Source: Paracyclopina nana
Lineage: Eukaryota > Arthropoda > Copepoda > Cyclopoida > Cyclopettidae
Assembly (NCBI GenBank): GCA_019096065.1
Contig: JAGUCH010000001.1
Coordinates: 17,696,001 to 17,760,000 of the forward strand
Length of the DNA: 64,000 bases
Direction of reading: 5' to 3'
Part shown: positions 25,698-58,365 of the stretch, piece after piece
How positions within the stretch are numbered: position 1 is the first letter of the stretch
Layout of the letters: each line of letters starts with the position of its first letter
The notes under the pieces: generated by a model
The model's input: only the letters and a program-made list of their open reading frames with translations
Told to the model about the DNA's origin: nothing
Databases searched by the model: none
Made by a program: the position numbers and the translations under genes

Positions 25698-25729
25698 AGA
25701 GCTCCAGCCGGGTCCCCTCACCTTCCTCC

Positions 25730-28700
25730 ATATTAGCAGCTCTCGACCACATCGCCAGTCATCAACGATTCATGGCCCAAGTCCCGATCCGCATCGGCAA
25801 GATCAAAGCCAGGGCCCTGGTCGACAGCGGCAACAGCTGGCGCACGTGCATCTCCGAGAATTTCGCTCGCCGACTTGGAGTTCTTCCACACGGTCTCCGG
25901 CCCATGCTCGACATGCCCGCGGTGGGCACCGCCCACGCGCAGCAACGCCTCCAGGTCCTGGGGGAGTTACGGCAACCACTGCGAGTGCAGCTGGGTAATC
26001 ACCCTCACTCCTTCTCTATCCGACCCGCAGTGGTACGAAACCTCTCCATGGATTTCAACTTGTCAGGGCCATTCCTGAGCCACCACCGCATCGACCAGCT
26101 CCACTCCCAAGGGACCCTGCGCGTGCACGGGAAGCAGATCCCGCTGGTGGGCGCCCTCCAACCCGCTGAGGATCAGGAAGAGTACGAAATCCGGATTCTG
26201 CGGCCCGTCAATATTCCAGCCCGCACTGTCACCCTGGTGGCCGCCGTAGCCCCTCACTGGCCCCACGGGTCCACACGGGCCGCCGCCCTCGAAGCAGGGC
26301 CCCAGTTTGCCGCGCAGACGCAGCTGGCGCCCTGGAACGTTGCACTGGTCCAGCCGCGGGCCGGCGGCAGCCTGGCAGTTGGGGTGCTGAACCCCCTGGA
26401 TCACCCGCTCCGCCTTAAGGGCGGAGTGATCTACGGCACCCTCCGCGTCTACGAAGAAGACGAGGGCCCCAGCGGAACCGAGGCTACTCCCTCGGTGCGC
26501 GCGGTGAGCACGCCGGCCACCACCCGCAGTACCAGCCGGAAGCAGTCGGAGTCCGATGCCAAGCGCCGCTACGAGCAAGCTGACCGTATCATCGACACCT
26601 TCAAGCTGAACGAGAACGACATGCTCAAAGATAATCCCAAGCGGCTGGCTCAAGCCGCCACCCTGCTCGCGGCCCACGCCGGAGCCTTTTCATTTGACGG
26701 CCGCACGGGGCAGACCACACTGGTCGAGCATGCCATAGATCTCAAGCCTGGGACGAAGCCCATCAACATCCGTCGGCGACCCATCAATCCGAACCTCGAG
26801 GCGTCCCTGAAGGAACAGATCCAGAAGTGGTTGGATGAAGAAGTCATCACGCCCATCACTTCGCCGTGGTCCGCTCCTCTTGTTCCCGTCCGCAAGAAGG
26901 ATGGCACGCTGCGATGGTGCGTAGATTATAGGGAACTCAACAAGGCCACTGTAGTCGACTCACACCCCATCGGAGACGTCAGGGACAACCTCAGCCGACT
27001 GGCCCGCTCCACGGTGTTTTCGACGTTGGACGCGGTGGGTGCCTTTAACGTGGTTCCCATTCGGGCAGAGGACGTGGAGAAGACCACCTTTTCCACAGGG
27101 GACGGCTCATACGCCTTCCTCAAGATGCCCTTCGGCCTCACCAATGCGCCCAAGACATACAGCCGCCTCAATAGGATGGTTCTGGAGGGCATATCATGGG
27201 ACGTTGCCCTGCCATACCTCGATGACTGCTTAGTCCATTCAACCGACTTCGAGTCCCACCTCCGCAACTTGCGCCTGGTGCTGCAGGCCCACGAGAAAGC
27301 AGGACTTCTGCTGAAGCCGTCCAAATGTCACCTGTTCCAATCCAGAGTGACATACTTGGGGCATGTTGTCACTCCTCAGGGCCTCGAGGTCATGCCAGCC
27401 TACATTGACCTCATCCGTGAATGGCCCTTGCCTAACACCAGGAAGCAGTTGCGTATCTTCCTTGGCAAGGCCAATTATTACCGATCCTTCATCGAAAAGT
27501 ACCAACATGTCGCGGCGCCCCTGTCGGACAAGCTCTCCAAGGACGACGGCACCAGCGACAACCATGTTTTCCAACCCAGCCCGGAGTTCCGGGCCGCTTT
27601 CGACGAGCTCAAGAAAAGGCTGACCTCCGCGCCTGTACTGGCCTATCCGGACTTCGCCTCGCCTAACCCCTTCATCCTGGATACGGATTTCTCACAAGAA
27701 AACAGGGCTGTTGGAGGGGTCCTCTCCCAAGTCCAAGATCGCAAGGAAAGAGTCATCTTATACGGCGCCAAGAAGCTGAACGCCGCTCAAAGCAATTATT
27801 CCGCTAATCAGGGCGAGCTGGTGGCCGTAATAATTTTCATCAAACAATTCAAGTATTACCTGCAACACCGCCGTTTCATCCTGCGCACCGACCATCGGGC
27901 CCTCCTCTGGATCCGCTCCATGGAAGCGCCCACGGGAATGCTGGGCCGATGGCTCGACACCATCTCCAACTACGACTTCGAAGTGGTACACCGGGCAGGA
28001 GTGAAGCACGGCAACGCCGATTCCCTCAGCCGAGCGCCCCACCTGGCACAGCGGGGTGACCATATCAGCTCAGACGTCTCTGATGATGACTTTTTCCGGG
28101 TGGCTAATCTCAAGCTGATTCCCACGAAGCCGGAAGCGTGGGCTGCGGCCCAGGAGGAGGACGACGACCTGGTCCTTCTGAGACAGCTAGTCCGACTGAA
28201 ACAATCGCCTTCGCAGGAGAACCTCAACGCTGCATCACCTCGAGGTCGCGTGCTACTGGAACAACTAAGTTCCATGACCATGGATCGGCAAGGTGCTCTT
28301 CGCTTGCTGGATCGGAAGAGGCAAACCTCGCGACTGGTGGTGCCCCGCCAGTGGCAGGAAGCCAGCCTCCGCCACGTACACGACACCATGGGACACCAAG
28401 GGCGCGACTCCGTGGTCCACAGGGCAGCTCAGCACTTCTACTTCCCAGGCATGACGCGCCTGGCCGATGAAGTCGCAAGTCCTGCCTCCTTTGCCAGCGG
28501 TCCAAGCCGGGCCAGAAGAGCCAGCTGCACACCCTCAAATCGCACTACGCTGGCTACCCGCTCCAGATCTTGAGCCTCGACTACGTAGGGCCGTTCCAGC
28601 CTTCGCCGAACCGTCACCGCTACTTGTTCACTGCTAAGTGCGTCTTCACCAAATGGATCGAAGCTTTTCCGTGCGGTTCCAATGATGCTGAAACAGCCGT

Positions 28701-30013
28701 GCGGTTTTTGACGACCGAAATCATCCCTAGATTTGGCCTTCCAGAGAGACTACACACCGATCAAGGGACTCATTTCACGGCCCATCTCATGCGGGAGGTA
28801 TGCGCGGCCCTTGGGATACAAGCCACCACTACTCCTTCATACAACCCGCGCAGCAACCCGGTCGAACGGGCGCATCGGGATCTCAACGAGCTCATCAGGA
28901 AGATGGTCAAGGGTCGATACGCGGACTGGGCCGAGGTCGCTCCTTCGCCCTCTTCGTCCTCCGTACCACCAAAAACCGCTCCACGGGCATGGCACCATAT
29001 GAAATGGTTTTCGGTCGCCAACCGTCGACCAACCTGGACTTGATCTTTGGGGACCCGCAGCCGGCTGTAGCAAAGGCCACGCAAGCAGGCCGATTCGCCA
29101 AGCAACTGAAGGAGCGAATACAACTGGCGCATGAATGGGCGAGGAAGAACATCTCCAACTCGATCGAGCGACAACGACGGGCTTATCACATGGACAAGCG
29201 TGCGTTCGTAGTGGGACAGAAAGTGTGGCTGTTCACCCCGAAGGTTATTCCACGCATCTCCAAGAAGCTACAAACCTTCTGGACGGGACCGTGGACAATT
29301 GAGAAACGAGTGAACGAGCTCACTTACGAAATAGCACCAGACCCGTCTTGGGCTCGAGCGCGGAACCAAGTTGTCTCGGTAGACCGCCTTAAGTTGTACA
29401 TCCCACCTGACCAAGATCAAGGCAACGTGTCTACTGCACCACCGGCCGAGGATTTGGATCTGTCCATGTTAGGTGACGAATCCGCCGAATTCCTCGCGGA
29501 CCCACCACATGAAATCGCGGCGGAGCCCGCTAATGACCTCGCTGTACCTTATGAATATGCGGTGGCCCCGACGGACAGAGAATATGGGTTCCCAGAAGCC
29601 CGAGATGACCCCATCCCGGCCTTCAACGACGACCCCACGATACCTGAGTACGACTGCACCCGATACCAATCCGATCCGGATGAACGCCCATCCACACCGG
29701 ATAATGAGTCTCCGCAGAATACTCAGCAACTGCCAAGCCCTCCTACAGACGATGATGAGCCCAGGCGCACTAGCACAGTGGTGAAAAGGAAACGACGATC
29801 AAATGCAGAAATGTTGCAGGCTGACACCGAGAGATTCTTAGGTGGACCAGAGGCGGTCACCAAACGGTCTAGATCCAAAACACGCAGCGGTGACAGGAGA
29901 AGCACGACCGACGAAGATACGTTGCCACTGCAGCATTTGCAAGACAATCCGCCAACCGTGCATCAAACTACTAGATATCTGCTCCCGCCGCTAGAACCGC
30001 GGCCACTACCTCC
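25730..30013 (+). pseudogene. pol: pol of the gypsy-type element (PR-RT-RNaseH-INT), frameshifted
   Basis: The first block (about 25730-28500) has an aspartic protease motif (LVDSGNS), reverse transcriptase of Ty3/gypsy type (VDYRELN, FGLTNAPKTY, and YLDDC at ~27217-27231), RNase H (LDTDFS, RTDHRALL) and the start of the integrase H2C2 finger (HDTMGHQGRD). A frameshift falls inside that finger between about 28480 and 28565. The integrase core follows in a second frame (28570-28940; HTDQGTHF and the downstream Glu region), and a second frameshift at about 28930-28950 moves to the C-terminal part (chromatin/DNA-binding tail, acidic and Ser-rich). The last frame is cut at 30013 by the CACTA-like element and continues on its far side at 45257. 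Confidence 0.85.
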
Positions 30014-30945
30014 CCCACAAAACAAAATGAAAAAAAGTTGTTAAAATATAGGGATTTCGTAGTGTATTGAAATCCCGATTAGTGTCAACTATTGGCAATA
30101 AAAGCGTAACGATATCGCTAAACATATGAAATCGGAAATAGGGACTACTAAAAAACAAAGATATGAGTTATTTTTTGTTTTCAATACGTCATTCAGACTC
30201 TAAGGATAGCGCATGATTAATTAAAAAAAAAATTATTAACAAATTCGAGAGTTATTAATTATTTTAATTTGGCAATAGCGCTATTTTATTTGTTCTTATT
30301 CCATATTCTATGGATTAAGTATGGATTTAATTTTTTTTTTTTTTTTAAATATTTCAAATTCTGTTTAGTCTATTTTCTTTCCATTTATTCCCAATTTTTG
30401 GGAATTAATATGGAATTAAATGGTATGTCAATATCTACTAAACCTATTCAGTTTAGATTTAAATGGAATTAAGTATACGTGTACTTTGCTTTTAAATTAC
30501 CATTTTTTTATTATTAATTTTTATTTTTTTCCGGACATTTCATTAATAAATTCTCTATTTATCTCCTAACTTTATCCGCAAATAACGTTTACATATAACA
30601 TGATTTTTCTTAGTAATTTTTTTCTCCCTATAAGACAGCTTTAGTAGTGCTAATTAATTCCATTTAATAGTCCTATTTTTTTAATCATTAGTAGCTATTT
30701 TTTAGATATGAATTAATGCATTATTCGATACACATTTTTCAATCCTAACTAAATGGAAATGGACTACCTTTTCAATCTACCAATAATTGGCATATAATCT
30801 ACTAAAATAAATTCCAATTAATACAGATAAACATAGCATTTATTTCCATCAATAAATAGTGCTTTTTTTCATAACTAATGATTGATAGATTTGTTCATAG
30901 AAAATAACGCTCAAAATAATTATCCTCGTGATTCCTTTTGGCCCT
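30014..30945. other. AT-rich left subterminal region of the 15.2-kb element
   Basis: No gene. It contains ATAGGGAT at about 30048 and AATAGGGACT at about 30136, words that recur at the other end of the element. The rest is poly-A/T-rich. Confidence 0.55.
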
Positions 30946-33887
30946 TCATATTTCATCTTCAGATGTTTCATTATGATGACTTTCAATCTAAAATAAAGAT
31001 ATATATTCATATTTTTACCATAAAATGTTAGTTTTTAGATTACCTTTCTTTCGGATCCGGATTTGTGCTGTTTCGTCAACTTATGTCCAGAAGTGACATG
31101 CATCTCATCATCTCTTTCCATCAACATCATTGGTTGTTGAGAGTGAGCTTTTTTGGGCAATGGATTTGATGTTTTTGGCACTTGTTGGCTTAATACACCC
31201 ATCTTGATCGACCTAGCAGATGGTCTCGCTGGTCTCAAGTCCTCTTCAAAGGGTATTTCTTCCCGTCTTCTCTTCATCGCTTTTCTCTTAGTCTCCTCTT
31301 CAGTTTCGAAATCATCTTCTGAACCTTCTTCGACTGTCATGTCCTTTGACGGTGTCATTACACTTCGCAATGCATCTTTGTTCCGCCAATCTCGAATTGC
31401 CTCAGCCACGTCCTCACAAGTAGCCAGTGCCTCCAAATACTTCTGTTTTGGCTATAAAAGTTTTTGAATAATAGCTCTATTTTTCTGAGTATATACAGAA
31501 ACAATACCTTTATAATACCATCCATAGGGTAGAACATGACGCTTTCAGGGTTCTTATCCAATGCCAGGCAAACCGCAGCGATGATTTTTGTTGCATCTTT
31601 AAGTCCATGAATTTGTTCGCCAGCACCCTTTTTAAAATTGCTCAACAAATGCTTGTATTTTGCATAATCATCAAGGGTGACATCAGTTGTTTCCGTTCCG
31701 TCATCCTTGTCGGACGTCAGCTTGTTTCGCAATGCGGTCATGTCTTTAGTAGTGTTAAAGAAATGATCATACGTCAGTGATGGATCCTTGTTGGCATGCT
31801 GAAAACATCACATTTAAAAAATATTGTTTTTAATTTGAAACTAGCTTACATAATTATTGGTCCAGAACCACATTGCTTCGAGGTACAAGGCTTTCATAGC
31901 ATCTCTGCCTGATTTTGCTTTCTTGCATACGTCATCGATGAATCGTTGCCTATCACCACTGAGAGCATCACCCATTCGATTTTTGATGTCTTGAAGTGAT
32001 GTTTTCTTGACATATGGCTCATCCACTTTGTGTCTCAACAAGTATGACGTCACAACCTCTTCAGCGAGTTTCAAGCAACCATTGGGAAAACCTCTCTTAA
32101 ACCAACTCTTGTTGTGTGTGCCACTGTTAAACAAAACAGAATCTATATTTTAAGTTGTATTTTGTCTGATTGTATACATACGTCATCTTTTCACCAAGAA
32201 TTAAATGAGCACGAGCGTTGCTGGTGAACAGAATTCGATTGATTAGCCCTCCCATTTTGCTTTTCAATTGCGGATATTCAATCTTGTCAATGCGAGGCCT
32301 AATAGCAGTTTGCAACACTTGCAGTATCACATCACATGCAAAAAAGTAGTCATGTCCAATATTGACGTGATCCACCGGCAAATGTCTCATCACAATTTGT
32401 CTCGCAAGCGACTCTTTTTCAACAGGAATTGTTCTCAGCATTGACATTTGCTCTTTCATGACTGCTGTTTGCTCGAGAATCGCCTTGTTTGTCTTGAGTA
32501 ATTCTTGATGCTCATCAACTTTCCTCTAAATAAACAATAATTTATAGAGATAATATATATTAAAGATTACAATTTTACCGGCTTTATAGCAACAGCTGCT
32601 TTGATCCACTTCGTTGATGCAACAGCACTTTCATTGATCCTCTCGCATAGTTGTTTGATGTCTCCATTTCCATTTGCCAAAGTTGAAATGTGCTCAATAA
32701 TTTCATCCTTTGCGTCATCGATTTTTTGAAAAATTGCTGTTTGAATTTGTGGAATCAATTCGCGAGCAAGTGAGCTGACCAATCTATTGATCGGACCCTT
32801 CTCAATGACATCATCATTTTGAGACAACAAGTCATCAGCCAGGATTTTTTGAGCTGCTTGGCTTGACTCGTTGCTTAACCGACGCTTCTCAATGATCTCA
32901 TTAGGTGGCATTATGTCACTGATACCTGATTCATCATCTGACTGATCAGAGTGAGCGAACGTTTGTGACCTCTTGCCTTGAGATCCCTTCTTGGCTTCCT
33001 TGCGTTTGCTAGATTTTTCATGGATGATATTCTCATCTTCCTCTTCACTATCCTCAACTGTTGGAAATGTCTAATATAGAAAAAAAATAGTAATAAAAAT
33101 GAAAAATGAAATTGCATTACTTTACCTTCGGTAGCTTGTTTGCCTTTGCAGTCACATCGCTATCAGAAGTAATCGGCATCGATACTGGCTTACTGCGCAA
33201 GTTTTGACCATGCCAATTATGGAAGATATGCTTCCCCGTCTTCAAATCGATTGGAGGAAAGGTGAAATCCATCATCAACTTCTCTGGATACGTTGACACC
33301 ATTTGGGAATACATTCTCTGGATTGACAGAAGATTTCTACATTTCCGAAACAGATTGTTTTGGTATTCAAGCACAGTCGACAAACGACCATCAGTGACAC
33401 CTAAAATTAGTAAACGATATCAAAAATTATGAGAGATAATAGATTAAAAATAGTAATTACGATCTTCAATCCTAAAGTAAACGTAGGTTGATGCAAAATC
33501 AATGCCATCATGCACCAGACAAGGCTTCAATCTTGATAAATGTTTCAGACTCTTGTTGGGTTGAAATCCGAAAATTTCGGTGAACGTTTTACCCGACACG
33601 TCGCATCTATGATTGACATAACGTATGAATAGCTTATCCTTTTTCCTGTTCGGATCGAATAGGCATAAGCGATCATAGGTTGCACCCGATTTCGGCAAAC
33701 GTACGGCTTTGTTGACATCAAGATGTGTCGTACTCTCAGATTGTGGAACATCAACACCGGCAATAATTGGCAGTTCATCGCCAATGACTTCTGATTCCTG
33801 ATGGGGCTCGATTGGTGGCAATTCTTCATCAAAGATTGATCCTTTTTTGGAACGTTTCATTTTCACACGTGGTAGGATTTTGATCAT
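30946..33887 (-). CDS. Cargo protein 1 of the CACTA-like element (850 aa, unknown family)
   Basis: Eight exons on the minus strand (33887-33461, 33400-33126, 33070-32579, 32525-32182, 32123-31850, 31798-31508, 31451-31044, 30987-30946) join in frame. An N-terminal domain (YDRLCLFDPN, KTFTEIFGFQPNKSL, YVYFRIEDR) is followed by a second conserved block (MYSQMVSTYPEKLMMDFTFPP, FHNW), an acidic linker, a helical region (residues ~290-400), and a C-terminal block (LFTSNARAHLILGEK, WFKRGFPNGC, GDRQRFIDDV). That block recalls BEN-like DNA-binding folds only loosely. It ends in a Lys/Arg-rich tail (KRKAMKRRREE). Exons 4 and 5 are exactly 344 and 274 nt, identical to those of paralogue 3. A nuclear, DNA-related role is inference. 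Confidence 0.75.
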
Positions 33888-34080
33888 CAGCTGACAACAA
33901 TTAATGAGATTGAATATTGATCGCTCAGTTGCTGCATTAACTAAGCAAAACTCTAAGCATAATTAGAAATGTCTATAAACTAACAATAAGCTGTTAAAAA
34001 AGTAGATTTTAGAGAGAAATACTTTTTTTTATTTTGGAATTCTTTACATAGTGATCTTAATCATTCACTAATCGCAAACA

Positions 34081-35221
34081 TCATTTTTTGCTTGAACGAT
34101 CAATCTCCTTCAATGAGGATCGAATGTCGACGACGTGCTCACCAACAGTGACAATTGCATCAGCTAGTGCATTGCAAACTTCTAAAATAGAGTTGCTATT
34201 CTGGTCAACGTTGTTAGTAGCACATTTGACTGCGTGCAATGATTCAACGGAATCATTGACTTTGTTGAAGCATTCATTCATGGTTTGAAGAGTTTCCAAG
34301 TTATCGATCTTGATGATTTCCATAGACCCTTTGATGACCCTAACGTCGTCATGGATAGATGTAATGAGCCCCTCCACAATACTTTGACGCTTATCGAAGT
34401 AGTCATTGATTAATGGACTAATCTTGTCCACAATTGCCTGTGCCAGCAATGCTTGATTGGCATTTCCGTCATCACGTGGATCTTGCTCAATCAGTTCCCC
34501 GGGTTGCGATACTTCTTGCTATGTATACAAATTTAACATTATTCCTGATTAAATGCTATTTATAGTTATTTACCTCACTATCTGAAGACAGATCAATCAC
34601 TACATGAGTCCGCATAGCCATTCGCCGACAATGAAAGTGGAACTCGTTCGTTTGCGGATCTCTTGGAGGATAGGTATAGAATACCATCAACTTTTCAGAA
34701 TATTGCCCGACCATTTCAATGTAAAGAGCACGTCGATCATCTTCAGTTTTGCATGATTTGAAATGCGCATTCAGGAATCCAACGATCCGTTCAACTCGAT
34801 TCTTAGAAACAGCTGGAATGGTTAAAAAAAGAATAATCTCTCAAACGTAAAACATTTATAGATTCAACAATTACTTACCATCTTGGATACGAGCAAAAAC
34901 AAAGAACTGCTCCTCTCGCCCGCTTTCAAGAACATCATGTCCTTTAAGTCGATTTTCATCGGACAATTCTTTTCGTGGATTGAATTCAAAAATGTCCAAG
35001 AGCGTTCGGTCAGTGTAGTTGCAGAAATAGTCAAAGCCTTGGCAAAACATGACTTCTTTCGTGTTGAATGGATTGAAGATAATCAATCGATTGTATTTTC
35101 CATTCCTTGGTCGGGCGACAGCCTTATTCCGTGGCAGATGACTTGTCTCTTCAATCAGTGGGACAATAACACCCATTTTTTTCGGGAACGACACTATTTT
35201 CCTCGAATGACGATTCTCCAT
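34081..35221 (-). CDS. Cargo protein 2 (339 aa), short paralogue lacking the C-terminal half
   Basis: Three exons, 35221-34879, 34812-34574 and 34518-34081, join in frame with the same phases as the first exons of paralogues 1 and 3. The N-terminal domain (YNRLIIFNPF, RTLLDIFEFNPRKEL, FFVFARIQDG) and second block (LYIEMVGQYSEKLMVFYTYPPRDP, FHFH) are conserved. The last exon is a helical, coiled-coil-like region ending in SSKK and a stop; the WFKR-containing C-terminal block is absent. It may act as a dominant partner or be a degenerate copy, but no stop or frameshift interrupts it. The first ATG is 35221. Confidence 0.75.
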
Positions 35222-35239
35222 CGCGTTTGAAATTCGGAA

Positions 35240-36440
35240 CACACGTGTTTACGAACGTTGGTTCAATTTTGCTGAGAAAAATACTGAGAATATGCTTAGG
35301 CAGGCTCGGCTGTGCGGGGCTGTCTGTCACCTCAGGCAGTTATTGCCGGCAATGCGCTTCATTGAATGACGCAACTTTTACACAATTTTTAGTCACATAA
35401 CCTCTCCAAAAATAACTTTAAATAGACTTAACAATGCTTATTCATTGATATCGGTGATCAATTGTTTATGAAAGTACTTGATAATGAAAGTATTTAAAAT
35501 GCTATGTGCTGTACTTATTAAAATATTGGAATTTAACGAAGTCTTAATAACAACACGAATATACTATTTAATAATGCGCAATTTCATGTTAGAGACTTAA
35601 AACCTTATGAATCAACGTAGATTTACAAAATGAATAAATAATAAGATTAAGTAAACAAAAGGTAATTATGAGCTGGAACATAATCATAATTGAGATAAGC
35701 TGTAATATTTTGAAATAGAGTCGGCTCCACCAACGGCCAATCAGAGCACAGCTACATTGCCATCTTCTCCAAAAGGCTGATCACGTGACCATTTCAACCA
35801 ATAAGAATCGAGATCGCTTGTTAAGCATAGAAGCAATAAAAATGAACGTTTAACTACGAAATTTATATCGTTTGATGCCATGAGCTACGATAACATTAAC
35901 TAAAATATTGAATTATACATTTAAGTTGTAACAAATGTATAATAGTAAACTAAATTCTAGCAAATGAACGTCAGTAATAGCTGCTACAGCACTTCGCAAT
36001 TTCACATATGTCAGTTATAAAACAAGATGTTGCATTTAAATGACATAATACAAGGTATTAATAATATCAAATGATATAATTACGATTACATTTGTAGATA
36101 TTTTAATTATTTAAATGTTTTTTTTTAAAAAATAAATCGATAAATCATATTGTCTATATTTAGTAAATGAAATCTAAAATTATAAGAGAATATTGACAGT
36201 TTATAGAGATAGCTCATTTTTATGTAAATTTTTAAAAAAATTCCGTTTCTTTTATATAAATACGTAACAATTTTTAACTTAAACGTCAATAACAAAGGAG
36301 TAGGCTTAAATTTCATACATATCATGCTTTTATTCTATTAGATCCAAGTCACATGCTTATTTTATCCTTAATGCGCACTAAAATTTAGGGTGGAGTATGG
36401 ATTACTCAATTCTTTTCCGAAAAATTACATTTTAAAACGA
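35240..36440. other. Intergenic between cargo genes 2 and 3
   Basis: AT-rich and non-coding except for the CCAAT/E-box module. It presumably holds the promoter of cargo gene 2 on the left side and the 3' end of cargo gene 3 on the right. Confidence 0.45.
35721..35820. promoter_or_regulatory. CCAAT/E-box module, copy 1
   Basis: GGCCAATCAGAGCACAGC, then ATTGCC.TCTTCTCCAAA and GGCTGATCACGTGACCATTT. The same order is found at 43099-43202. It holds a CCAAT box and a CACGTG E-box and lies between the start of cargo gene 2 and the stop of cargo gene 3, so it could be a cargo-gene promoter. The function is inferred from motifs and duplication only. Confidence 0.45.
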
Positions 36441-36444
36441 AATT

Positions 36445-39348
36445 TCAAGCTTCTTCAGCCTCGGAAGAGCTGTCATCCTTAGGCGGGGGCGGAAATTGAG
36501 ACCTAGTAGCAACTCGGACACCTGATGTGGAAGCAATTGGCTTCTTCGCAGACGCAGCCTTGGCTGGCGTCTTCTTCTTCGCCGACTCCGTTTTCTTGGC
36601 CTCCAGCAAGGCCTTCTTGACTGCAGCAGCAGACATTTGCTTGCGTGGACGTTTCGAGGCAGAAGAGAGGCTTTCAGATGACGATCGTTTGCCCTGCTGC
36701 TTCTGCTTTTTTGTTGGTGGCGTCACATTGTCATCCGATTCGGCATCGCTTGTCTCCTCATCGTCCCTTGGAGCGCATCCTTCTTGAATGTTCTCCAAGA
36801 CGGCATTCATATCCAGACCGGAGATGAATCTCGAGTAGATATCATACGGCTGTAATGAAAGTTTGAGATTTAGATTTATGTCTATATAAAATCAATTTTT
36901 TATCAATTTATGCTTAATTATTTGAAGCTTACATTTTGAATGCCATCGATCTCATCGAATTCGACGTCCTTGGGATCACGACCCATCGCATGACAGACAG
37001 CGGCAATAATACGGCACGCCTCTTCAATTGATCCAATAGGAGAACCGTGCGCGCCTTTGAATTTCTTCAGGACATCCTCCTTGGCAATATCCACACCGAG
37101 TGGTTCAGCTTCAAACTTCTGTTGAAGATCATCCGAATGTCCATATTGGTCTTGAAACTCCTCATACGTCATATTGGGATCGACGTTGACGTGCTAAAAT
37201 AGTAGTATGTCACAAATAGATCGTTTAAATTGATTCATCATAGTATTTAACTACCTGATTTTGAGTCCAAAACTCCATAGCTTCATCATAAAGCACGGAC
37301 ATTGCCATTTCCCAATCATTGGCAACTCGGCAAACCTCTTTGATGAGTCGCTGTCTCGCTGCGCTGAAGCCATCGGCAACCTTCTTGTTGACCTCATTGA
37401 CCGAAATGCGAAGGATTTGCTGCTCCGTCATATTTCGCCTCTGATGGTTGTCAGAGACGACCTCGGAGATGAATTTGATGCATCCAGTTGGCAGCTTGCG
37501 CTTAAACCAAACCTTTAAGGCATTTCCACTAAAAAATATAAATTTGTCTATAAACAGTCAATATATAAATAGTTATTTACTTACGTGGTCGACTTTCCAA
37601 AGATCATGTGCGCCAACGCGTTGCTCGTGAAGAGGAAGCTTGAAATCTTGCTGGGCATCTTTGAAGCCAAGACCTCAAACCGAATGTTGTCAACAATGGT
37701 GACAATAGCGCCGAGTAAGATCTCCCTGATGATGTTGCATCCAAAAAACATGTCGTGTCCAGCAGTGACATGATCGACAGGAATGTATTTGCATACAATC
37801 CTACGAGCCAATGATACGCGCTCGACCTTTGATGACTTGATGTCCTTAAGCGCTTCCTCAATCATCGATACCTTCTCAAGTATGGCCTTGCACGTAACTA
37901 GTGCTTGTTGTTGATCAACGGCCTTTTTCTATAAGTAAAAATCAATATATACTTTCAATACTTTATATTTTTTTGAGAGTTTACCGTCAATGCGTCCTTT
38001 GTTGAGATGGTCATCTTATTGATTCCCTCGCAAAGTTCAGACAACTTCCCAAAGTTTTGGCATTTCTCGTTAACCTCGCCAAGAGCATCTTTGAATTTGG
38101 CAGTCGTGTCTCGTCCTTGGCCAATGTCATCCTTGATCGATGCCACGTCAGCCTTGATGAGTTCAAGTACATCGATAAGGCGTTGATCCCTCTGCGCGAA
38201 GCTTTCCATTAACCTCGGCATGATCTGATCGGCAACTGAACGAGCAATCTCGTCAATTTGCGATTTAGTCAAAGCAGACGACGTTCCGAATTCAGGAGGA
38301 TGGAACGTGATTGACGGAGTGCGCACTAAGACTGGAGCGTCATCATTGTCATCCTGAGTCTCCGCGTCATCAACTGCAGTCTCAATTACTGCTGTGGTGT
38401 CATGAGGTGCCACCTCATCCTCCTCGTGCCCCCTTGCTTTTTCCTTGGTCGTGAAAAGCATTTGGACTTTCAGAGGGCTACATTTACTCCTTGACGACCT
38501 GGTGCTCCTCCTTTTTGGACTCGTACTTTGCGTGGACGACTGTGGCTCGTCGACTTCCTCCTGTAAATTGTTTTTCATCATTATCTATATAAAATCTCAA
38601 TATTAAATTGTTTTTACCGCAGTTATTGCGTCAGTGACGCTTTGAGCGATGGCCTCCCTCTTCTCTTGGATGTCGGTCAATCTGTGGAAGTAGAACTCCC
38701 CGTTCGGGTCTCGGCTCGGATACGTGTAGTCTGCCATCACTTTCTCATTGTATTGCTCGACCATTTTGTGGTAGATGTCAATACGCGCAGACTCGGACTT
38801 AGTTCTAAAGTGGTCATTGAGGAACTTCAGCAATGTCGCCACTCTCGAACGTTGAACTCCTGCAAATCAATGATATCGCTATAAAATGTTATTTTTTGTT
38901 TCATTATGTACTTACGATTCTCAACTCGGCAGAAAATGAACGCCTTTCGCTTTGTCCTCTTGCTGATGTGCATTTCGCCCTCCTTCAATCGTAGTTTATC
39001 GCTCAGCTTCCCCTTAGGTTCGAAACCAAAAATGTCCTTGAACGATTTTCCAGTGTATCCACAGATCGTCGTGATTGGATAAATCGATACCGGCTCGAAA
39101 TCTTCTGGGTTGACGATGAAAACCCGATTATATTCGGCTTTTCCTTGTCGAGCGACGGCGTCCTCTTTGGCCAATCCAGTCCAATCCTCGACATCTGGGA
39201 TCGTCAAACCAATTGAAAGAGGATAGATCACCTCACTTGTTGACGGACTGGCTCCGGGTGATGGAAGTGGCGTCGGTGGCGGCATATTGAAGTCCTCACG
39301 AAACTTTTTTCGCTTTTCGTACAGCAATTGCTCCTTCGTCTTCACCAT
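36445..39348 (-). CDS. Cargo protein 3 of the CACTA-like element (844 aa, paralogue of 1)
   Basis: Seven exons (39348-38916, 38859-38618, 38560-37985, 37928-37585, 37528-37255, 37193-36933, 36849-36445) join in frame. It has the same domain order as cargo protein 1: N-terminal domain (YNRVFIVNPEDF, KSFKDIFGFEPKGKL, AFIFCRVENR), second block (YHKMVEQYNEKVMADYTYPSRDP, FYFHRL), acidic/Ser linker, coiled coil, C-terminal block (LFTSNALAHMIFGKS, VWFKRKLPTGC, ARQRLIKEV), then a basic Lys/Ser/Ala-rich tail (KKTPAKAASAKKP) and an acidic end. The exon 4 and 5 lengths (344, 274 nt) equal those of paralogue 1. The start ATG 39348 is the first in frame; it is divergent from the transposase gene with 526 bp between. 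Confidence 0.78.
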
Positions 39349-39874
39349 TGTTGACAGGAAATAGATGTTTGCGCTCAATTTTCCCGCTCAGTATAACTTC
39401 TCAACTAAACTAGTTTGGGCCGGCATATGTTGCTTAGTTGTACTGGCCGCACGGGCAGAACAAGCGCGCACAATAGCTGCCCAAAACTAAGATGGCGTCT
39501 GCCTGAATAGCTTGGACTACCGGATGCAGTACCGGCACGGCGTTGCATTCGGCTTGCGCGCCGAAATCATAGATTGAGTCACTGTAAATATTATTTGTTT
39601 TTCGAATCGATCGATTATTTTTTAGCCAATTACTGATTTAGTCAAATTAAAATATATAACATTAGGATAAGTCAGGTAATATTTTATTTTATAATCTAAT
39701 TCTATTTTATTTATTTTTCTAAATCAACTTTATTGTTTGCAGTGTCAAAAAAGTATAATGATATGCAGTAAATGATATCTTATTGATGTTCTTAAATATA
39801 TAATATCATCATCTCATTTATTTTTTTGTTTTGTTATTCATTGATTATTAAGACGGTAAAGTGCTATATCAGCA
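39349..39874. promoter_or_regulatory. Divergent intergenic region, likely bidirectional promoter
   Basis: The 526 bp between the starts of cargo gene 3 (minus) and the transposase (plus) must hold both promoters. It is GC-richer near the cargo side and AT-rich near the transposase; no clear TATA/Inr pair could be assigned. Confidence 0.4.
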
Positions 39875-42555
39875 ATGTCGTCTAAGGATCGTATGGCATT
39901 ACTCCGTCAACGACGCATAGAGAGACAGTTACGTGAACTTGATTCAGATGATTCCACTGATTCATTAATTATTGACAGATCTCAACAAAATCACAACTCT
40001 GAACGAATTGACAACTTAATCAGTGTTGTTGAAAGTGAATTGTCAAATTTACATGCAACAACCTCATCTCATAATTTGCGTGTATTACGTAAGCGTTCGG
40101 CATCAAATAGCTCAATTGATTATGTACCGAAGCAGGCAAGAAATGTAATTATTTTAATCTATTAGCATTGATAATTCGATTTCATATGACATATTTTCGT
40201 AGAACGAGTGTTCTCAAAATAACGGTGATGGAAACTCAATACCAGATTTAAATATATCTGTTGAAAATCAGACTATTGATTCATCAATCGATAATAGCCA
40301 AGGAAGTATTGAAGAGGACGAAGAGGTAATAAGCCTATATATTTTATAATTTTATTCAATTATTGTACAATATTCCATTTTTTATATTTAGATTATCAAT
40401 TGTGATCATTCATCTGGATTTGGTGTAAAGGACGGATACTACACAGCTGATGGAAAGTACATGTTTCTTGATACCACGAAACATAGACTTAAAGAGAACT
40501 ATTCAATTGAAAAGTTTATTGCCTTATTTGATGAAGCAGCATCCATGCCTCCTGATGCTGCATGTGATTATATTGGTGACAGCTTCATTATGACGTACAC
40601 TGAACTCATGATGTCTGAGAATTCAGCAAGAGCCATGTGGAATTTTTTGAGAGCCGCATTAAGTCAAAACTATCCGAACCTGAAGTCATTTGCCACGATT
40701 AAAAGGAAATTCTACATGACAATACCAAAAACGAAAGTAGACTATCAAATATTGGATAAAGGAAATGGAAGCATCATCAACTTGACCGATAAAGATGCAT
40801 TTCCTCGAAAAAAATATCCTGCAAAGAAATTCGAAATATTGTCAGAATGGACAAAGTTGTCAATTCTTGATCTCTACAAGTTTCATGCCAAAAATCACAA
40901 CTTATTGATTGATGAAAACAGCATTATGAATGTTAAATACGATTTGTCCTTTGATGGAGTACCAGTAACCGAATCTGGGATCGACAAAGCCACTGTTTTA
41001 TGTGTCAGATTCTTTGGTTGTCGATTAGTGTACAATGTTGGTCTTCATAAATACAGGTATATTTTTAATATAATAAATCTATAACAGACTGTATATTTTA
41101 TTTTTGTAGAAGGAAATCGAAGGTTGACTTTAATTGTTTAATGGAGAAGATAATTTATGATGGCCTTATGGATGGATTCATTTGCCATTGTGCAATTGCT
41201 GATGCTCCCTGTCGTTCATCGGGCAAGTGTTTTAAAGGACATGGTGGCTACTGCTCGTGTGAGAGATGCTATGCTGTTGGAGTAAGCTTAGGACCTGGAT
41301 GCATTGCCTATCCTCCTACGAAAAAAAAATATCAACTACGAACACATATAGGGTGGATGCGAATTGTTGAAAATATTAGAAACTCGAATAAGCAGTTGAC
41401 AGACTATGCCAAATTTGGTGTTATTGGCAGTTCACCTTTCCTCAAACTGCCACATTTTGATATAGTCAAAGACTTTCCTGTTGAGCCAATGCATAATTTG
41501 TTTTTAGGCCTAGCAAAAGGCCTACTTAAGCTAATGCTTGGTATTTCTGGAAAAACAAAATCATACCCTCAAAGAGTCATGACTGTATTTAAAAAGTATT
41601 TTCTTTCTATAATTATGTGTTTGGGTAATTGATATACTTGTTTATTTAGATTTGATGAGACGTGGACAAGTATACAACTACCATCTGAATTTTCAAGGAA
41701 GCCAAGAGATCTCGAACGATCATTTGTTCATTTAAAGTCTGAGGAATTTGTCACTATAACTTGTTGTGCATTCTGGCATATGGCTGAATCATTTAGTGAT
41801 ATTGCATCAACCAATCGGACTATTTCCCAAAAACATTTGAGACGATTATTCAAATTTTTTGGTTTTCTTTGCAAATCAGTGCTTCTCGATAATCAAATGC
41901 TTGAGTTCTGTCATGAGAAGACATATTTGCCACTTGAAAAGTTATTAGACATTTTCTATGAAATGTGGTCAGAACAGTTTGGAGAGAAGAAATGTTCTTA
42001 TAACCTTCACGCTTTCAGTCATGTATTTCTTGTTCGAGAGGATCATGAATTTGATGACATATCTGCAGAACAATTTGAAAACAATTATGGTTATATGAAG
42101 AGATTTCTAGAAAATAATACTCAGGTAATTATTGTTTAACAGTATAAAATGTCTATAAATACTTATTTTTTGATATTTAGTCATATGGTAAACAACTCAT
42201 CAACAAAGCAAATGTCTTGACGATGCAAAAACATCACTGTGCAAGAGTTATTCGGATTACTAGTATGCAAGGAAAAAATAACACTAACGACGCATTCATT
42301 CTTGCAAATAATCTTATGTTTTATGAAGTTTTATCAGACAAAGATGATTATTTCTATTGCAATAAGGTGAAAACTGAAAAATTTGTAGATGAGGAGACAC
42401 CCGAACTTAATTATGATGCAATAATGCTCAGAAGGTTTATTAAAGTCATGAAAAGTGAAGAATTAGTACCAGTTCTGAAAAAGGATGTCAAGTCAAAATG
42501 TGTCATTGTCAATGACTTAATCTATTCTGTGTCATTTTCAACTTTATTTGTATAA
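39875..42555 (+). CDS. EnSpm/CACTA-like transposase (797 aa)
   Basis: Six exons (39875-40144, 40203-40325, 40392-41056, 41110-41595, 41650-42124, 42181-42555) join in frame. After an acidic, Ser/Asn-rich N-terminus come conserved blocks: YDLSFDGVPVTESG (first catalytic Asp region), a Cys/His cluster (IADAPC, then KGHGGYCSCERC), RTHIGW, and DFPVEPMHNLFLGLAKGLL (second Asp region). Next are a PSEFSRKPRDL..LKSEE block and a helical C-terminus. These match in order the Transposase_21 family of EnSpm/CACTA elements as I remember them. No internal stop is present and all introns are 47-66 bp with good splice sites, so the enzyme may still be functional. Confidence 0.78.
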
Positions 42556-42644
42556 TTTTGTGAAAATATATTGCGTGCTTACATCTTGAGCTACAAAATC
42601 GATCAATCACTTATATCATTTCGTAAACAAACAAAAACGGGAAA

Positions 42645-42956
42645 ATGGAAAATGATCGCAACGATAAGTTGTTTAAAAGGAACACGATCATACAAAAGCT
42701 TAATGAATTGGCTGGAAACAAGAATTCAAGAATTGGTGAGGCAATAATGACCAGAACCGAAAAATTCGTTTATTCAAGAATTGATATGGCTAAGGAAATG
42801 AACGAAGACAATCCAACTGAAAAAACCTCGCAAAAAGTCTCATCGCCTAAAAGTTACTACAGCAGTAATAGCGGAATGCAAAATAGCGTGCGATGTAAGT
42901 TCGAAAAAAAGATGCCAGCCATTGTCTACATCACTGATAGCGAGGATGATAATTAA
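42645..42956 (+). CDS. Small basic ORF downstream of the transposase (103 aa)
   Basis: It opens 89 bp after the transposase stop with ATG 42645. It is Lys/Asn/Glu-rich with a helical N-terminal half (KLFKRNTIIQKLNEL), and ends with VYITDSEDDN, an acidic tail like that seen in SUMO-interacting motifs (hydrophobic VYI followed by acidic residues). AATAAA lies at ~42974. It is probably a small accessory protein of the element, but with no homologue in view it could also be chance. Confidence 0.45.
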   Translation: MENDRNDKLFKRNTIIQKLNELAGNKNSRIGEAIMTRTEKFVYSRIDMAKEMNEDNPTEKTSQKVSSPKSYYSSNSGMQNSVRCKFEKKMPAIVYITDSEDDN

Positions 42957-43098
42957 CTCTATGTTATAGATCAATAAAATGTAATAACTATTGAATAAAT
43001 AGCAATTACTTTTCATGCCTTCAAGACATACGTGCAAAAAAATGAGTTTAATTTATGAATTTGATGTTTCATTAAATGAAAAGTAATAACATATTACA

Positions 43099-43202
43099 TC
43101 GGCTCCAAGATCAGATCACGGCTCAAACAACAGCCAATCAGCGCACAGCCCTATTGCCTTCTTCTCCAAATGGCTCATCACGTGACAATTTAACCCAATC
43201 GG
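43099..43202. promoter_or_regulatory. CCAAT/E-box module, copy 2
   Basis: It is a diverged copy of 35721-35820: CAGCCAATCAGCGCACAGC, ATTGCC.TCTTCTCCAAA, GGCTCATCACGTGACAATTT. It has the same order and nearly the same spacing, and lies between the small plus-strand ORF and the small minus-strand gene. Confidence 0.45.
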
Positions 43203-43561
43203 AGTCATTCTAATGCAATCGCCACATATTCAGTCGTACATCATTTTTGGGGTTGATAGCAATTAAATTATATCCCAAATAATAGTTTTTATAGCTTATT
43301 AATAGTGTAATTTATATTTTATTTTCACTAACCTTAATTTTAATAGAAAGTAAGAAAACATCAGGTCAATAATTATCAATACATTATTCAAGCGTATTTG
43401 ATCAAGCTATAAAATTGGCTCAATTACTGAACTGCCAATAGAAGCAATAAACACTGCCTTTCTTGACGCTAATCATGAATTGCATAAATGTTATAAATTA
43501 AACTTCTTTTCTGTTTTCTATAATATCTATTTCAAAATGTTAGACTGCGAAGACATATCTT
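43203..43561. other. Non-coding spacer inside the 15.2-kb element
   Basis: AT-rich; contains GAAGCAATAAA and other A/T-rich words but no gene. It probably holds the 3' UTR of the small minus-strand gene to its right. Confidence 0.4.
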
Positions 43562-43827
43562 CTATTCTTTCTTGGTATTGCTATTGTTGATCAATTCCCT
43601 CTTCAATTGCTCAATAGCATTCTCAGCAAGTCTTATTTCCTCTTCTACTCTTTCAGCCTTCTCTTTTGCGGATCTGATAAAGTATATGCATTAATAAAAA
43701 TTGTGTACATAAACAAACATATATAATAATTTTACCGTAAATTGCGATCAGCTCTTTTTTGCAAAAATCTTAGTTGCAAATTTTCAGCAAGTAATGCAAG
43801 AAATTCTCTGATCTCGTTTGGATCCAT
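43562..43827 (-). CDS. Small two-exon coiled-coil protein (67 aa)
   Basis: Exons 43827-43736 and 43673-43562 join CG|A in frame. The product begins MDPNEIREFLALLAENLQL and continues as a charged heptad-like helix (RVEEEIRLAENAIEQLKREL). The join, a 62-bp intron with GT..AG, and the uninterrupted amphipathic pattern across it support a real gene. No homologue recognised. Its place in the element suggests an accessory or adaptor role, by inference only. Confidence 0.55.
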
Positions 43828-44020
43828 GGTAACCCACACAAGTCAACTAGCACGTATTGACTGCCCTTAAGCAATGACAAACTTTCGAACAATATGAGAA
43901 TCAGGTTTAGTGATGAAACAGAAAACTATGATAAATACCAGCATTCTAGTTATGAAGAAACTTGATTTTGTAAAATTCTGTTTACGTAAATGCCACAAAC
44001 ATTTGGAAAAAATGGCTATT

Positions 44021-44702
44021 TACTAAATCCAAATAGATAGGAAAAATTGGCAAATAAATAGGGATTTAATTAAAAGCGAATCAATTCGAAAGTTAGGAAA
44101 AGTCATGCAGTCTTATCAGCAGTTAGATGCGAATTCCATATAGCAACTTTCTCGTTATGGCATGCAGCATGAATAGATAAATAATATGTAGTCACTTAAT
44201 CCAAATAGATAGGAAAAAGTGGCAAATAAATAGGGATTTAATTAGAAGCGAATCAATTCGAAAGTTAGGAAAAGTCATGCAGTCTTATCAGCAGTTAGAT
44301 GCGAATTCCATATAGCAACTTTCTCGTTATGGCATGCAGCATGAATAGATAAATAATATGTAGTCACTTAATCCAAATAGATAGGAAAAAGTGGCAAATA
44401 AATAGGGATTTAATTAGAAGCGAATCAATTCGATAGTTAGGAAAAGTCATGCAGTCTTATCAGCAGTTAGATGCGAATTCCATATAGCAACTTTCTCGTT
44501 ATGGCATGCAGCATGAATAGATAAATAATATGTAGTCACTTAATCCAAATAGATAGGAAAAAGTGGCAAATAAATAGGGATTTAATTAGAAGCGAATCAA
44601 TTCGATAGTTAGGAAAAGTCATGCAGTCTTATCAGCAGTTAGATGCGAATTCCATATAGCAACTTTCTCGTTATGGCATGCAGCATGAATAGATAAATAA
44701 TC
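44021..44702. repeat. 172-bp tandem repeat, about four units
   Basis: The landmark GAATTCCATATAGCAACTTT starts at 44131, 44303, 44475 and 44647, exactly 172 bp apart each time. Units are almost identical (rare changes such as CGAAAG/CGATAG). Each contains AAATAGGGATTTAATTA, the same ATAGGGAT word found near the element's two ends. It lies ~550-1230 bp inside the right end of the CACTA-like element. Confidence 0.9.
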
Positions 44703-45256
44703 TTGTGTAACTATATCAAATTAGATGGGAATTCGATATTTAAAAATGTATTAAAAACTGCATTTCATTTTAAAAAAAAAAGGAAATAAAATTACTTAAA
44801 AATTGGTATATTAAATCTATAAAAAATGCATTTTTTTAATTAAATTTCTTAATTAAAATTTAAAAAAATGGCAAAAAAAATAACAGTCTATTTTTTAACA
44901 ACTTAAAGCCTAAAAAAGGGAAAAAATATATAAAAAATAGAGCTTATAAAAATTAACTTATTAAAAAAAAAAATAACGTTATTATGTCATAAATGTTATA
45001 ACTTAAGCTATTGACACTTAAAATTTATGAAAACTAATAAAAAATTTATAATTTGAACTAAGCGAAATTGCAACAAAAAGGCAAACTTTAAATTTGAATA
45101 TCTCAATAATGTAACGGAGCACATTTAAAAAAAAGGTATGTGTGCAGTCGGTACATCATATGGAATACGATAATGCCAAAAATTTTCAATTTGAGAGAAG
45201 TTTAATTTAGGGCAGGATTTAATAGATAAAAAATAGGGATGTTTTGTTTTGTGGGG
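44703..45256. other. AT-rich right subterminal region of the 15.2-kb element
   Basis: Poly-A/T-rich, without a gene. It carries AAATAGGGATG directly before the terminal TTTTGTTTTGTGGGG. Confidence 0.55.
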
Positions 45257-45587
45257 TCTTCGACCGTCCATTCCGTCACCGATCAAAGAGGCCTCTCACT
45301 CAACATCATCATCGGCACCGTCAGCAGCTACCGCAGAAACGTGCGACGACGTGTTCCAGGACTAATACAAACCAAGTGTAAAAAGGCTATCATACGCACC
45401 AATATTGCTCCCTCATGACAAAGTTTGGGGGGGTGCACACACATTTATGCCACATTCATGCCATATTTCACATCACATATGTATCATAACTGCATTATTA
45501 ACACATGCTCATGCTATATAAACCATGACATTCGGGCGCAAACACTAACAAGACAAACAAGCGTATAATAATCATTTACCTTCTCTC
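45257..45587 (+). other. End of pol and env leader of the retroelement
   Basis: 45257 to about 45363 continues the pol tail frame after the CACTA-like insertion and ends in TAA. TATATAAA at 45515-45522 and a pyrimidine tract with CAG at 45591-45593 lie just before the env frame; the latter looks like a splice acceptor for a subgenomic env mRNA, as used by env-bearing gypsy elements. Confidence 0.5.
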
Positions 45588-45677
45588 TTGCAGTCTGAGT
45601 TAATAACCAACTACCTCCTAGCGAAAGGAATTTATAAAGTGTATACTAGCTCACCACTACGTACTACGTCGTCCACC

Positions 45678-48137
45678 ATGCATCCAGGTCATTGTTTGTG
45701 CAGTCCCACGCTGATGCTCCTCGTCTTCTTTGGATACAGCTACTGGATCCTCCTCAACGAGGTGGCCCAAGCAGCAGCCTTCCCGGGGCAGTCACCACGA
45801 CCAGCCGATTTGTACACCCCAGACGCCAAGGTGACCTCGTTCACCACCTATGACTGCGCGCACCCCGATGCCATGCACGAAGCCATCGACCTGAGCCAGC
45901 CTGAACTCTGTGAAGATATTCGCAGCTCTTACCAGTCGCCGGTTAATATCACGATTCAGGTACTGCAGACGGCCTCGACCCTCTCCGTTAAGGCATACCG
46001 GTGCCGAGTGCACATATCGCGGGAAGTCACTCGCTGCGGATATGATAGCATCAGTTATGGGAGTCAAATGACAGACGTAAATAGGCCCTACCTGGTAACG
46101 CCGCAAGCCTGCCGAGACGCCGCCGAGAAACGCTTCCTGCTGGTGGAAAATAAGAAGGTCCAAGTCACGCTCAATACCCCCGTGTCCCTGTCATACTTCT
46201 CCAAGGGTGGGCTCGATAAGGATCACAAATGCACGACGACTACTTTCATCAGTGGTGGCGTGACATTCTACAAATCGTATGAAACCACCACGATCCACGC
46301 GCTGGTGGAGCCGATCTACGGGAAGCTAAACACGGCCAATGGGCGGGTGGTCTTCTCCAACCACCTTACAGCCAACTTCCAGGACTTGATCGTGCAGGAC
46401 GACGCCGAAGGCACCATTGTGTGGCTCTAAGCGCAAGACCCCCGTTGCGAAGATGAACTGAGCGAAGTATACAAGGGGCCGGCCATTCTGTATCCTCACC
46501 GCAACTCGTCCAGCTTCAGCGGCAACGCTGGTCACCTAGGAGACCTGCTCCTCCTTGCCCACGAAGAAGAATCGCGGTTCGCGGGATTCGTCCTCAAGGG
46601 CGTGCAGTCCATGTGCCAGCGGCGGCTGTTCACCACTCAGCTCCGCGACTTCGCCGTCTTGATCGTGGGACCCGGGATGGACCCTCCAAGCCAAGTACCT
46701 CCACCCGGAGGACATGGACGGTGCGAACATACAGACACAGCTGGCATTCGTACATTCGCAGCATGCGCTGCATATCCAGGACCGGTTCAAGTTCCTCCAG
46801 GAACTTATTTGCAAGAACGAACGAGCGATCCTGCACTCCAAGCTGCAGAGTATGGCTTCTGGCTCCTCATCATACGCCACCCTGGATAGCCACGGACCAG
46901 GCCATCTAGTCACCCGTGCCGGGGCTGTAGCCTATGTTACCTCCTGCTACCCGGTGCAAGCCGTCACCAGGTCTATTGCGAACTGCACGCAGGAGATTCC
47001 TGTGCTGGTGAACAACGAGACACGATTCGCGGACCCTCTCTCCTTTGTGCTGACTGACCGGCCCAGCGTGGTCCCATGCGATTCCATCACCCCGATTAAA
47101 TGGAAGATCCACAATCAGTGGATGTGCGCTACCCCCAGATCCACGCCTGTATTGCCCCTACGCAACTCAACCCCATGTCGGACGCGGCTCCCCGGAGCGG
47201 ACATTACGACATCAGTCGAGGACTAGGGGTGGAGTGTTCTCGGCGGAACAACGGGCTAACCATATCCTCTACCTCCACTTGTTTAGCAGTCGGGAGGCCG
47301 TGGTGAACACTATCACTAGTAACGTGCTCCACAACTCGCTTATCACGGGCAGCAGGTCGACTACGCTTATGGACGCAGGAAGACATTGATCAAATGGTGG
47401 ATCATGTCGGCAGCGCAATTATTCCTTTCTTCAGCTCAGTGGGGAAGTATTACTCCTACTTCACAGGGACTCTCATCACCATCGGCCTGATCAAGTTGAT
47501 CCTCGGAGCCATCATCCGGATGATCATCCTGTACCGACGGCGCGGATTGGGTTGGTGGATGTTCTTGGCTCTGTGGCATACGGCCTTCCTGATGGTTGAG
47601 ATGCCGTGGCGGATGCTTACCAACCTTGGGCACGACCAGATCCTATTCCCTGGCGGGGACGACGATGACGAGGATCAACCCCCAACACGCGGCAGGCGCC
47701 GACCTCGAAACCGAGACGGACCCGAGGCGTACCCCCTGGCCGCCCTCAGCGACGGAGACGAAGAGGATGACGACGAGGCACCCCCTAAGTACGGGGTCGC
47801 AGAACCAGGAGAAACCGATGGACCCCGCCGGACTGGATTCCGCCAACGCATGAAGGAGGCTCTATTTAAAGAACAAGACGGCCTCTACCGGAACCTGCAG
47901 GCACAGGTCGACGCACTGGCGAGGCAGAACGAGACTATGCACAACTACATTATGGCTGTGCTTCCCTCGGCTCCGGCGCCCAATACTGTGGCCTCCGCGA
48001 CCTCGACGCCCCTGAAGTCACCGATGGAAGGAGGAGCGACCACCGGTCCACCTATCTCCCCTGTACCTCCGGCCGCGGGATCCCCCCGACATAGGGTGCC
48101 AGCATTGCGCCGTGAGGACACGGCCACGCTTCAATAG
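45678..48137 (+). pseudogene. env: env-like viral-type glycoprotein gene, broken
   Basis: ATG 45678 in a CCACC context is followed by a hydrophobic signal-like helix. The ectodomain has paired cysteines and an N-glycosylation site. An in-frame TAA stands at 46428-46430, the same frame then continues to about 46680, and at least two frame changes follow (about 46690-46714 and between ~47130 and ~47394). The last block (47394-48137) carries two hydrophobic helices, then a long acidic/Pro-rich tail ending just before the polypurine tract. From memory the ectodomain resembles glycoproteins of chuvirus-like negative-strand viruses captured by LTR elements; I cannot verify this. The gene cannot make a full product as it stands. 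Confidence 0.65.
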
Positions 48138-48145
48138 GGGGAAAT
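48136..48145 (+). other. Polypurine tract
   Basis: AGGGGGAAAT lies directly before the TG of the 3' LTR and overlaps the end of the env stop; this is the expected site of plus-strand priming. Confidence 0.7.
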
Positions 48146-58190: not shown

Positions 58191-58365
58191 TAGGTTGTGT
58201 GACTAAAAAATAAAAGTTCAGCTCTTACACTCGAATCAGAACAAAAGCAATTATGTGAGTGAGGTTAGAACTTAGATAAAGTTGGGAGAGTGGGCGCATT
58301 TACATGGTACTACTATGGATCGTGTCTGGTACTACCAGAATGATACTTGGTCCTACAAAATGGTT

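Follow-up and report, generated by a model that had tools for sequence, protein, structure and literature searches.

A triplicated candidate partner gene in a CACTA-like transposon of the copepod Paracyclopina nana

The window analysed here comprises 64,000 nucleotides of the Paracyclopina nana genome (GenBank assembly GCA_019096065.1, 91.95 Mb in 10 contigs) and lies near the end of the 17.77-Mb contig JAGUCH010000001.1, at positions 17,696,001 to 17,760,000. It contains a CACTA-like transposon whose transposase gene is accompanied by three mutually related genes, designated A, B, and C (Table 1). We consider it likely that this is a two-component animal CACTA transposon of the TRC type, in which the protein family encoded by A, B, and C would work like plant TnpA, the partner gene being triplicated in this element.

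A search of the genome with the transposase yielded 14 loci with at least 58% identity, which form the window subfamily. Partner genes were found at all 14 of them: three at 11 loci, five at two loci, and one at a single locus (C2_5790). This tally is based on exon-1-type matches read by eye and counts copies whether or not they are intact; the elements that appear to hold five partners are C3:11.188-11.198M and C6:1.002-1.012M, and a B-type exon 1 was seen, again by eye, in 13 of the 14 elements. At least 97 matches to A were obtained, all inside the 14 transposase-bearing clusters (54 of 330 candidates scored), and copies of gene C were counted by way of A and B cross-hits and in directly read elements. 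When the comparison was extended to the 98 related transposase loci found, a homologous partner was located within 10 kb at 90 of them, 89 times in head-to-head orientation; the median gap is 1.7 kb. For random places, the 10-kb neighbourhood included a transposase in 2.3% of trials. The input consisted of three transposase searches, the partner profile matches with E ≤ 0.001, and selected rows of two partner searches. The distant transposases are 28–44% identical and have mostly uninterrupted frames. A partner-type gene was seen in all four distant elements that were partly read (L051, L052, L053, and L040-L041); in the first three, the partner domains lie upstream of the transposase gene and on the other strand.

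An earlier sequence-only reading of this DNA had described the three genes as cargo and had proposed to ask whether they co-occur with the transposase across genome copies. They do so at 14 of 14 subfamily loci and at 90 of 98 wider loci, and the head-to-head arrangement at 89 loci makes the partner look like a core component of the transposase system that was multiplied in the window subfamily. Host-gene cargo was rejected on the basis of this co-occurrence. As judged from the genomic distribution, the partner is most likely part of the transposition machinery and not a passenger.

The splice models were built by hand from sequence alone, and all exons are predictions. The model of the transposase (six exons) matches the previously read length of 797 amino acids (aa) exactly. 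A, B, and C consist of 7, 3, and 8 exons; all 18 are open, and GT...AG is present at every intron. The intron phases are 1,0,0,2,0,0 in A, 1,0,0,2,0,0,0 in C, and 1,0 in B, and A and C agree in the lengths of exon 4 (344 nt) and exon 5 (274 nt). In exon 1, A is 31% identical to B and 29% identical to C; in exon 4, A and C are 44% identical. The open exons, the common phases, and the equal exon lengths are thus reproduced from the sequence-only reading; of its protein lengths (850, 339, and 844 aa) the 339 aa of B stood, and A and C were corrected to 844 and 841 aa. Two small genes, G5 and G6, were absent from its gene list. All nine genome matches to G5 lie inside elements of the window subfamily, and weaker relatives occur in C4_4063 and C9_879. 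Pieces of G6 are 84–90% identical in the C7 copy (L055), and weak matches exist in C2_5790 and C4_4063.

Purifying selection acts on the frame of A as strongly as on that of the transposase. Compared to its counterpart in the C2 copy, A is 83% identical over 826 codons without stops, with a nonsynonymous rate (dN) of 0.105, a synonymous rate (dS) of 1.29, and a ratio of 0.08. The corresponding ratios of the transposase are 0.09 versus the C2 copy (745 codons) and 0.07 versus the C1 copy (741 codons). In total, A was compared 11 times over eight elements, and 10 comparisons contained no stop. The frame of C stays open in three other elements, over 721, 793, and 800 aligned codons, and the B orthologue read in C4 is open as well. 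Selection, which had been suggested for all three genes with recent activity as the alternative, is therefore established for A; for B and C, where dS is saturated, the result is openness.

In a tree of the N-terminal domains, the orthologues of C were grouped with support values of 100/100 and those of A with 92/97, which is short of the support mark of the tool; the orthologues of B grouped only with a long-branch row among them. Because the orthologues of A and C group across elements, the duplication into A and C evidently predates the split of the two terminal inverted repeat (TIR) groups described below; the duplication that gave rise to B probably does so likewise. The order C-B-A-transposase is kept by the orthologues in two elements of the sister TIR group (C9, 16,061 bp, and C4, 15,599 bp).

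The TIRs start with CCC and read CCCCACAAAACAAAA in the window group and CCCAACCAGACAAAC in the sister elements. A profile of four transposases retrieved 10 proteins from a set of 5.8 billion proteins; six of these match DUF4218 and two match Transposase_21, one of them both (seven in total), all below the curated cut-off. The mite Blomia tropicalis contributes one distant relative (22% identity). The window transposase itself did not match Transposase_21 or DUF4218 in Pfam at E ≤ 1, and three distant relatives did not match them at E ≤ 10; a genome scan with PF02992 gave no signal in any control genome and carries no weight here; a single transposase query gave no homologue in the large protein set at E ≤ 0.01, and viral contigs gave no matches to the transposase or core-domain profiles. 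The residues D319, D384, and E658 are invariant in all 15 aligned transposases of this genome and could form the DDE triad. Among CACTA/EnSpm elements, TIRs start with CCC in the TRC type and with CACTA in plants, and TSDs measure 2–3 bp (2 bp in TRC). Taken together, the homologues with sub-cut-off matches to DUF4218 or Transposase_21, the invariant D/D/E, the CCC start of the TIRs, and the 2-bp target-site duplications (TSDs) fit an assignment to the animal TRC group of CACTA/EnSpm, which has been described for Schistosoma, Tribolium, and Aedes (PMC1636069). TIR, TSD, and transposase relatives hence agree with the original designation as CACTA-like.

An exact 2-bp duplication was found at all 12 insertions with both ends readable, namely the window, L042-L049, C9_879, C4_4063, and C2_5790. 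The count leaves out L050, L055, and C9_1566, where both ends were not seen, and C7_4118, where the TIR pair was looked for and not found. Of the element borders read previously (30014 and 45256) the end was retained and the start was moved to 30013, as specified by the 15-bp TIR and the flanking TC. Three elements belong to the sister TIR group and have lengths of 16,061 bp (C9, TSD TA), 15,599 bp (C4, TSD CT), and 10,555 bp (C2_5790, TSD TC); apart from cross-hits of paralogues, nothing in the last one matches A, B, or the first 61 residues of C. Two further copies, delimited by matches to the two ends of the window element, span 15,099 bp (C2:4523161-4538259) and 15,094 bp (C7:4374055-4389148). 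Within this pair, two interior stretches were compared, of 3,583 bp (99.94% identity) and 3,438 bp (99.97%); the pair may have arisen by segmental duplication, the flanks lying outside the comparison.

Six copies, 2.0–2.2 kb long, show matches to the two ends of the window element and none to its gene region. Two of them are 99.96% identical over 2,203 bp, the match stops at the termini, and their 2-bp TSDs differ; by this pattern, gene-less derivatives have evidently moved recently. The sequence-only reading had regarded same-TIR copies without the three genes as an argument against its proposal. Taken literally, these six are such copies, but they do not count against a partner role: they lack the transposase as well and are thus deletion derivatives.

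Tandem arrays are present in the right part of all seven elements that are readable there, with unit lengths of 172 bp (window and C7), 170 bp (C3, C4, and C9_879), and 171 bp (C2_5790 and C9_1566). Their distance to the right end is 479–624 bp in the five elements measured. The units of the window and of C7 are 84% similar and those of C9_879 and C4 about 74%, those of C4 and C2_5790 have only a 29-bp stretch in common, and the remaining pairs show no similarity at E ≤ 0.01 (the C3 unit was outside the comparison). A left array exists in three of the four elements with a readable left part (174, 174, and 164 bp) and is missing from the window element; all six gene-less copies matching both ends have kept the array. 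Six other arrays with periods of at least 60 bp in the same 330 kb have units of 93, 111, 119, 134, 145, and 255 bp. L009, L010, and L012-L014 show no array, and their stretches end 0.5–1.5 kb past the transposase, which is too early to tell. As a separate observation, a short relative of the element is adjoined by a 29-copy array of a 93-bp unit (L050:1-2717). Because the period of 170–172 bp is common to all seven elements and the units are mostly unrelated in sequence, length might be the selected property. Rather speculatively, the elements could maintain nucleosome-length subterminal satellites with which the fast-diverging partners co-evolve, laying out a platform of phased chromatin as a mark of the end for the transposase. 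If true, the DNA transposon would have a chromatin-organising satellite of its own, which it carries along and renews.

The protein family appears to be undescribed, as had been suspected. Neither A nor B nor C reaches a Pfam cut-off, and the large protein set yielded no relative of A at E ≤ 0.01. The look of exon 4 had suggested a BEN domain, which was rejected: the Pfam BEN models gave no match to A, B, or C at E ≤ 1, nor to 12 core-domain members at E ≤ 0.1. In the literature searched, of which the sources were accessible in part, no conserved separate partner protein is described for animal CACTA elements; subscription papers and Repbase lie largely outside this search and may contain one in print.

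In plants, CACTA transposition needs TNPD plus TNPA, and TNPA binds subterminal repeats; from element to element, both vary strongly, the repeats as well as the TNPA-like proteins, and relatives are hard to recognise (PMC2613891). A TnpA-like role of the partner is suggested by the combination of a conserved transposase with a fast-changing partner and fast-changing subterminal repeats, and by gene-less derivatives that keep ends and repeats. The TnpD-like transposase would cut and join at the CCC-starting TIRs and leave the 2-bp duplications. The divergently transcribed partner would be a TnpA-like accessory factor, probably present originally as one gene per element, which most likely binds subterminal DNA, including the 170–172-bp arrays where present, and which could assemble the element ends or control the element's own promoter. 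It would have been triplicated in the window subfamily before its elements diverged. A occupies the common head-to-head position, C represents another full-length version, and B is a short form that lacks the core domain and may act as a regulator. From the co-occurrence and the arrays, we infer that the partner is required for transposition and binds DNA; a division of labour is likewise presumed.

Compared to known systems, the element shares CCC-starting TIRs and 2-bp duplications with SmTRC1 and animal TRC elements, whose Transposase_21-type transposase may also have its counterpart here, and SmTRC1 likewise has a region with tandem repeats. In contrast, the consulted part of that report (PMC1636069) describes no separate divergent partner gene and no triplicated one, and the elements delimited in Tribolium and Aedes measure about 5.2 and 9.2 kb, versus 15,244 bp here. 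The two-component logic and the divergent subterminal repeats are common to plant En/Spm, Tam1, and Tgmt*, and deletion derivatives occur in plants as well, where they move in trans if the ends are kept. However, alternative splicing of transcripts from a single region yields both plant proteins, and Tgmt* has a 3-bp duplication instead of the 2 bp seen here (PMC2613891). The partner described here is a separate divergent gene with no known domain, of which apparently up to five are present per element. By size and number of open reading frames (ORFs), the element may be likened to the En/Spm families of the red alga Chondrus crispus, which are similarly enlarged to 16–20 kb with 4–5 ORFs (cited in PMC6431247). 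PIF/Harbinger elements (PMC2836001) also need two element-encoded proteins for mobilisation, ORF1 and a transposase, the latter from a different superfamily.

Several observations weigh against a TnpA-like partner. Searches of Pfam, PDB, and NCBIfam gave no fold or sequence link from A, B, or C to a DNA-binding protein. All Pfam matches stay below cut-off: bDLD2 for A (E 0.0067, 17.3 bits versus a cut-off of 25), DUF7217 for B (0.059), DUF6877 for C (0.17), and Activator_LAG-3 for a single one of the 13 N-domain members (0.006). Sequence searches of PDB with A and two domain alignments and of NCBIfam with A produced nothing credible, and the AlphaFold predictions of two window exon-4 pieces (mean predicted local distance difference test score 43) were too poor to use. 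No 170-bp array exists in the stretches of L051, L052, L040, and L053, which are outside the subfamily, or in the short TIR relatives L048-L049. A listed partner is lacking at eight of the 98 transposase loci. Conversely, no transposase is listed within 10 kb of 42 of the 131 partner loci, a figure that may shrink because the transposase searches scored 57–71 of 229–235 candidates; stand-alone partner genes may exist. One comparison of A and the B orthologue in C9 each contain a stop, dN/dS is not computable for B and C due to saturated dS, and short, poorly aligned transposase rows gave higher ratios of 0.15–0.43 over 66–243 codons.

The partners might act mainly against host silencing, that is, SUMO-dependent chromatin or piRNA-linked repression, and keep the element transcribed. 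This is improbable. A motif at the end of exon 2 of B (VVIDLSSDSE in the window) recurs in all three B orthologues read (PIVVDLCSDDE and PIVVDLASSDDE in the others) and is close to a canonical SUMO-interacting motif (SIM). The four G5 proteins that were read have C-terminal ends in which acidic residues follow hydrophobic ones, a pattern that is rare in shuffled sequences (0.01). The motif in B, however, is short and not rare in shuffles (0.16); a SIM scan found none in A and C and one in the transposase (shuffles 0.25). The near-universal head-to-head position suits a core function at least equally. Still less probable is a role of B and C, the extra copies, chiefly as self-limiting repressors, with B as a natural truncation that titrates complexes of partner A. 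Repressor forms are known in other transposons, B keeps the N-terminal domains and ends before the core, and the wide occurrence of B-type exon 1 in the subfamily is in line with such a role; C, in contrast, has all domains and is open in three other elements, so the extra copies are not all truncated.

The introns, the lack of recognised relatives, and the partner loci without a nearby listed transposase would also be compatible with captured host genes carried as passengers. We regard this as very unlikely: the listed matches to A are confined to transposase-bearing clusters, the head-to-head frequency far exceeds the random value, the gene groups track the elements in the tree, and the constraint on A equals that on the transposase. 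Compared to these alternatives, the TnpA-like partner is preferred.

Table 1. Features of the CACTA-like element, in window positions.
Feature	Position	Strand	Remarks
Whole CACTA/TRC-like element, 15,244 bp	30013..45256	.	TIRs and 2-bp TSD; two related copies spanning both ends
Left target-site duplication TC	30011..30012	.	2-bp pattern in 12/12 insertions with both ends read
Left TIR CCCCACAAAACAAAA	30013..30027	+	15 bp, perfect; starts CCCC
Partner gene C, 8 exons, 841 aa	30946..33860	-	
Partner gene B, 3 exons, 339 aa	34081..35221	-	N-terminal domains; no counterpart of exon 4-5 core
Second copy of 81-bp module, upstream of B	35722..35802	-	84% identity
Partner gene A, 7 exons, 844 aa	36445..39348	-	head-to-head with transposase
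Transposase, 6 exons, 797 aa	39875..42555	+	hand-made splice model; homologues with DUF4218/Transposase_21
Small gene G5, 103 aa	42645..42956	+	acidic SIM-like C-terminus
81-bp module	43119..43199	-	CCAAT-like and CACGTG motifs
Small gene G6, 2 exons, 67 aa	43562..43827	-	coiled-coil-like (by eye)
Right subterminal tandem array, 172-bp unit, 4 copies	44022..44701	+	end about 555 bp inside right terminus
Right TIR	45242..45256	-	reverse complement of left TIR
Right target-site duplication TC	45257..45258	.	

The two window copies of the 81-bp CCAAT/CACGTG module have the same orientation, and the module is present too in C9_879 and L009; it is possibly a shared promoter. Between partner and transposase, on the transposase strand, an extra long frame was observed in L051 (L051:6104-7264, 386 aa) and in L052 (L052:2345-3592, 415 aa), which may be a separate gene or an upstream transposase exon. 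The transposon is inserted in a G+C-rich long terminal repeat (LTR)-type element, classified by its domains, which occupies window positions 24129-30012 and 45259-49693. Its upstream frame contains reverse transcriptase, RNase H, and integrase domains. Downstream of the insertion follow frames matching the Monjiviricetes fusion glycoprotein (PF24664), which apparently represent an envelope gene of negative-strand-virus type, and then a frame for an OTU-like protease; the insertion separates the polymerase part from the envelope part. A MULE transposase domain is located at 22062-22817, and a long TTAGG-type telomere-like array with variant units extends from 58361 to 64000, the contig continuing for about 12.6 kb past the window. 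Rfam gave no matches in window positions 1-58300.

Approximately 90 transposase-partner pairs in one genome, many of them with uninterrupted transposase frames, make the co-evolution of partner and DNA directly testable, and the window subfamily offers a case of a partner gene that was tripled and kept. The proteins belong to a family without a Pfam model, and in arthropod genomes its members might be mistaken for host genes during annotation.

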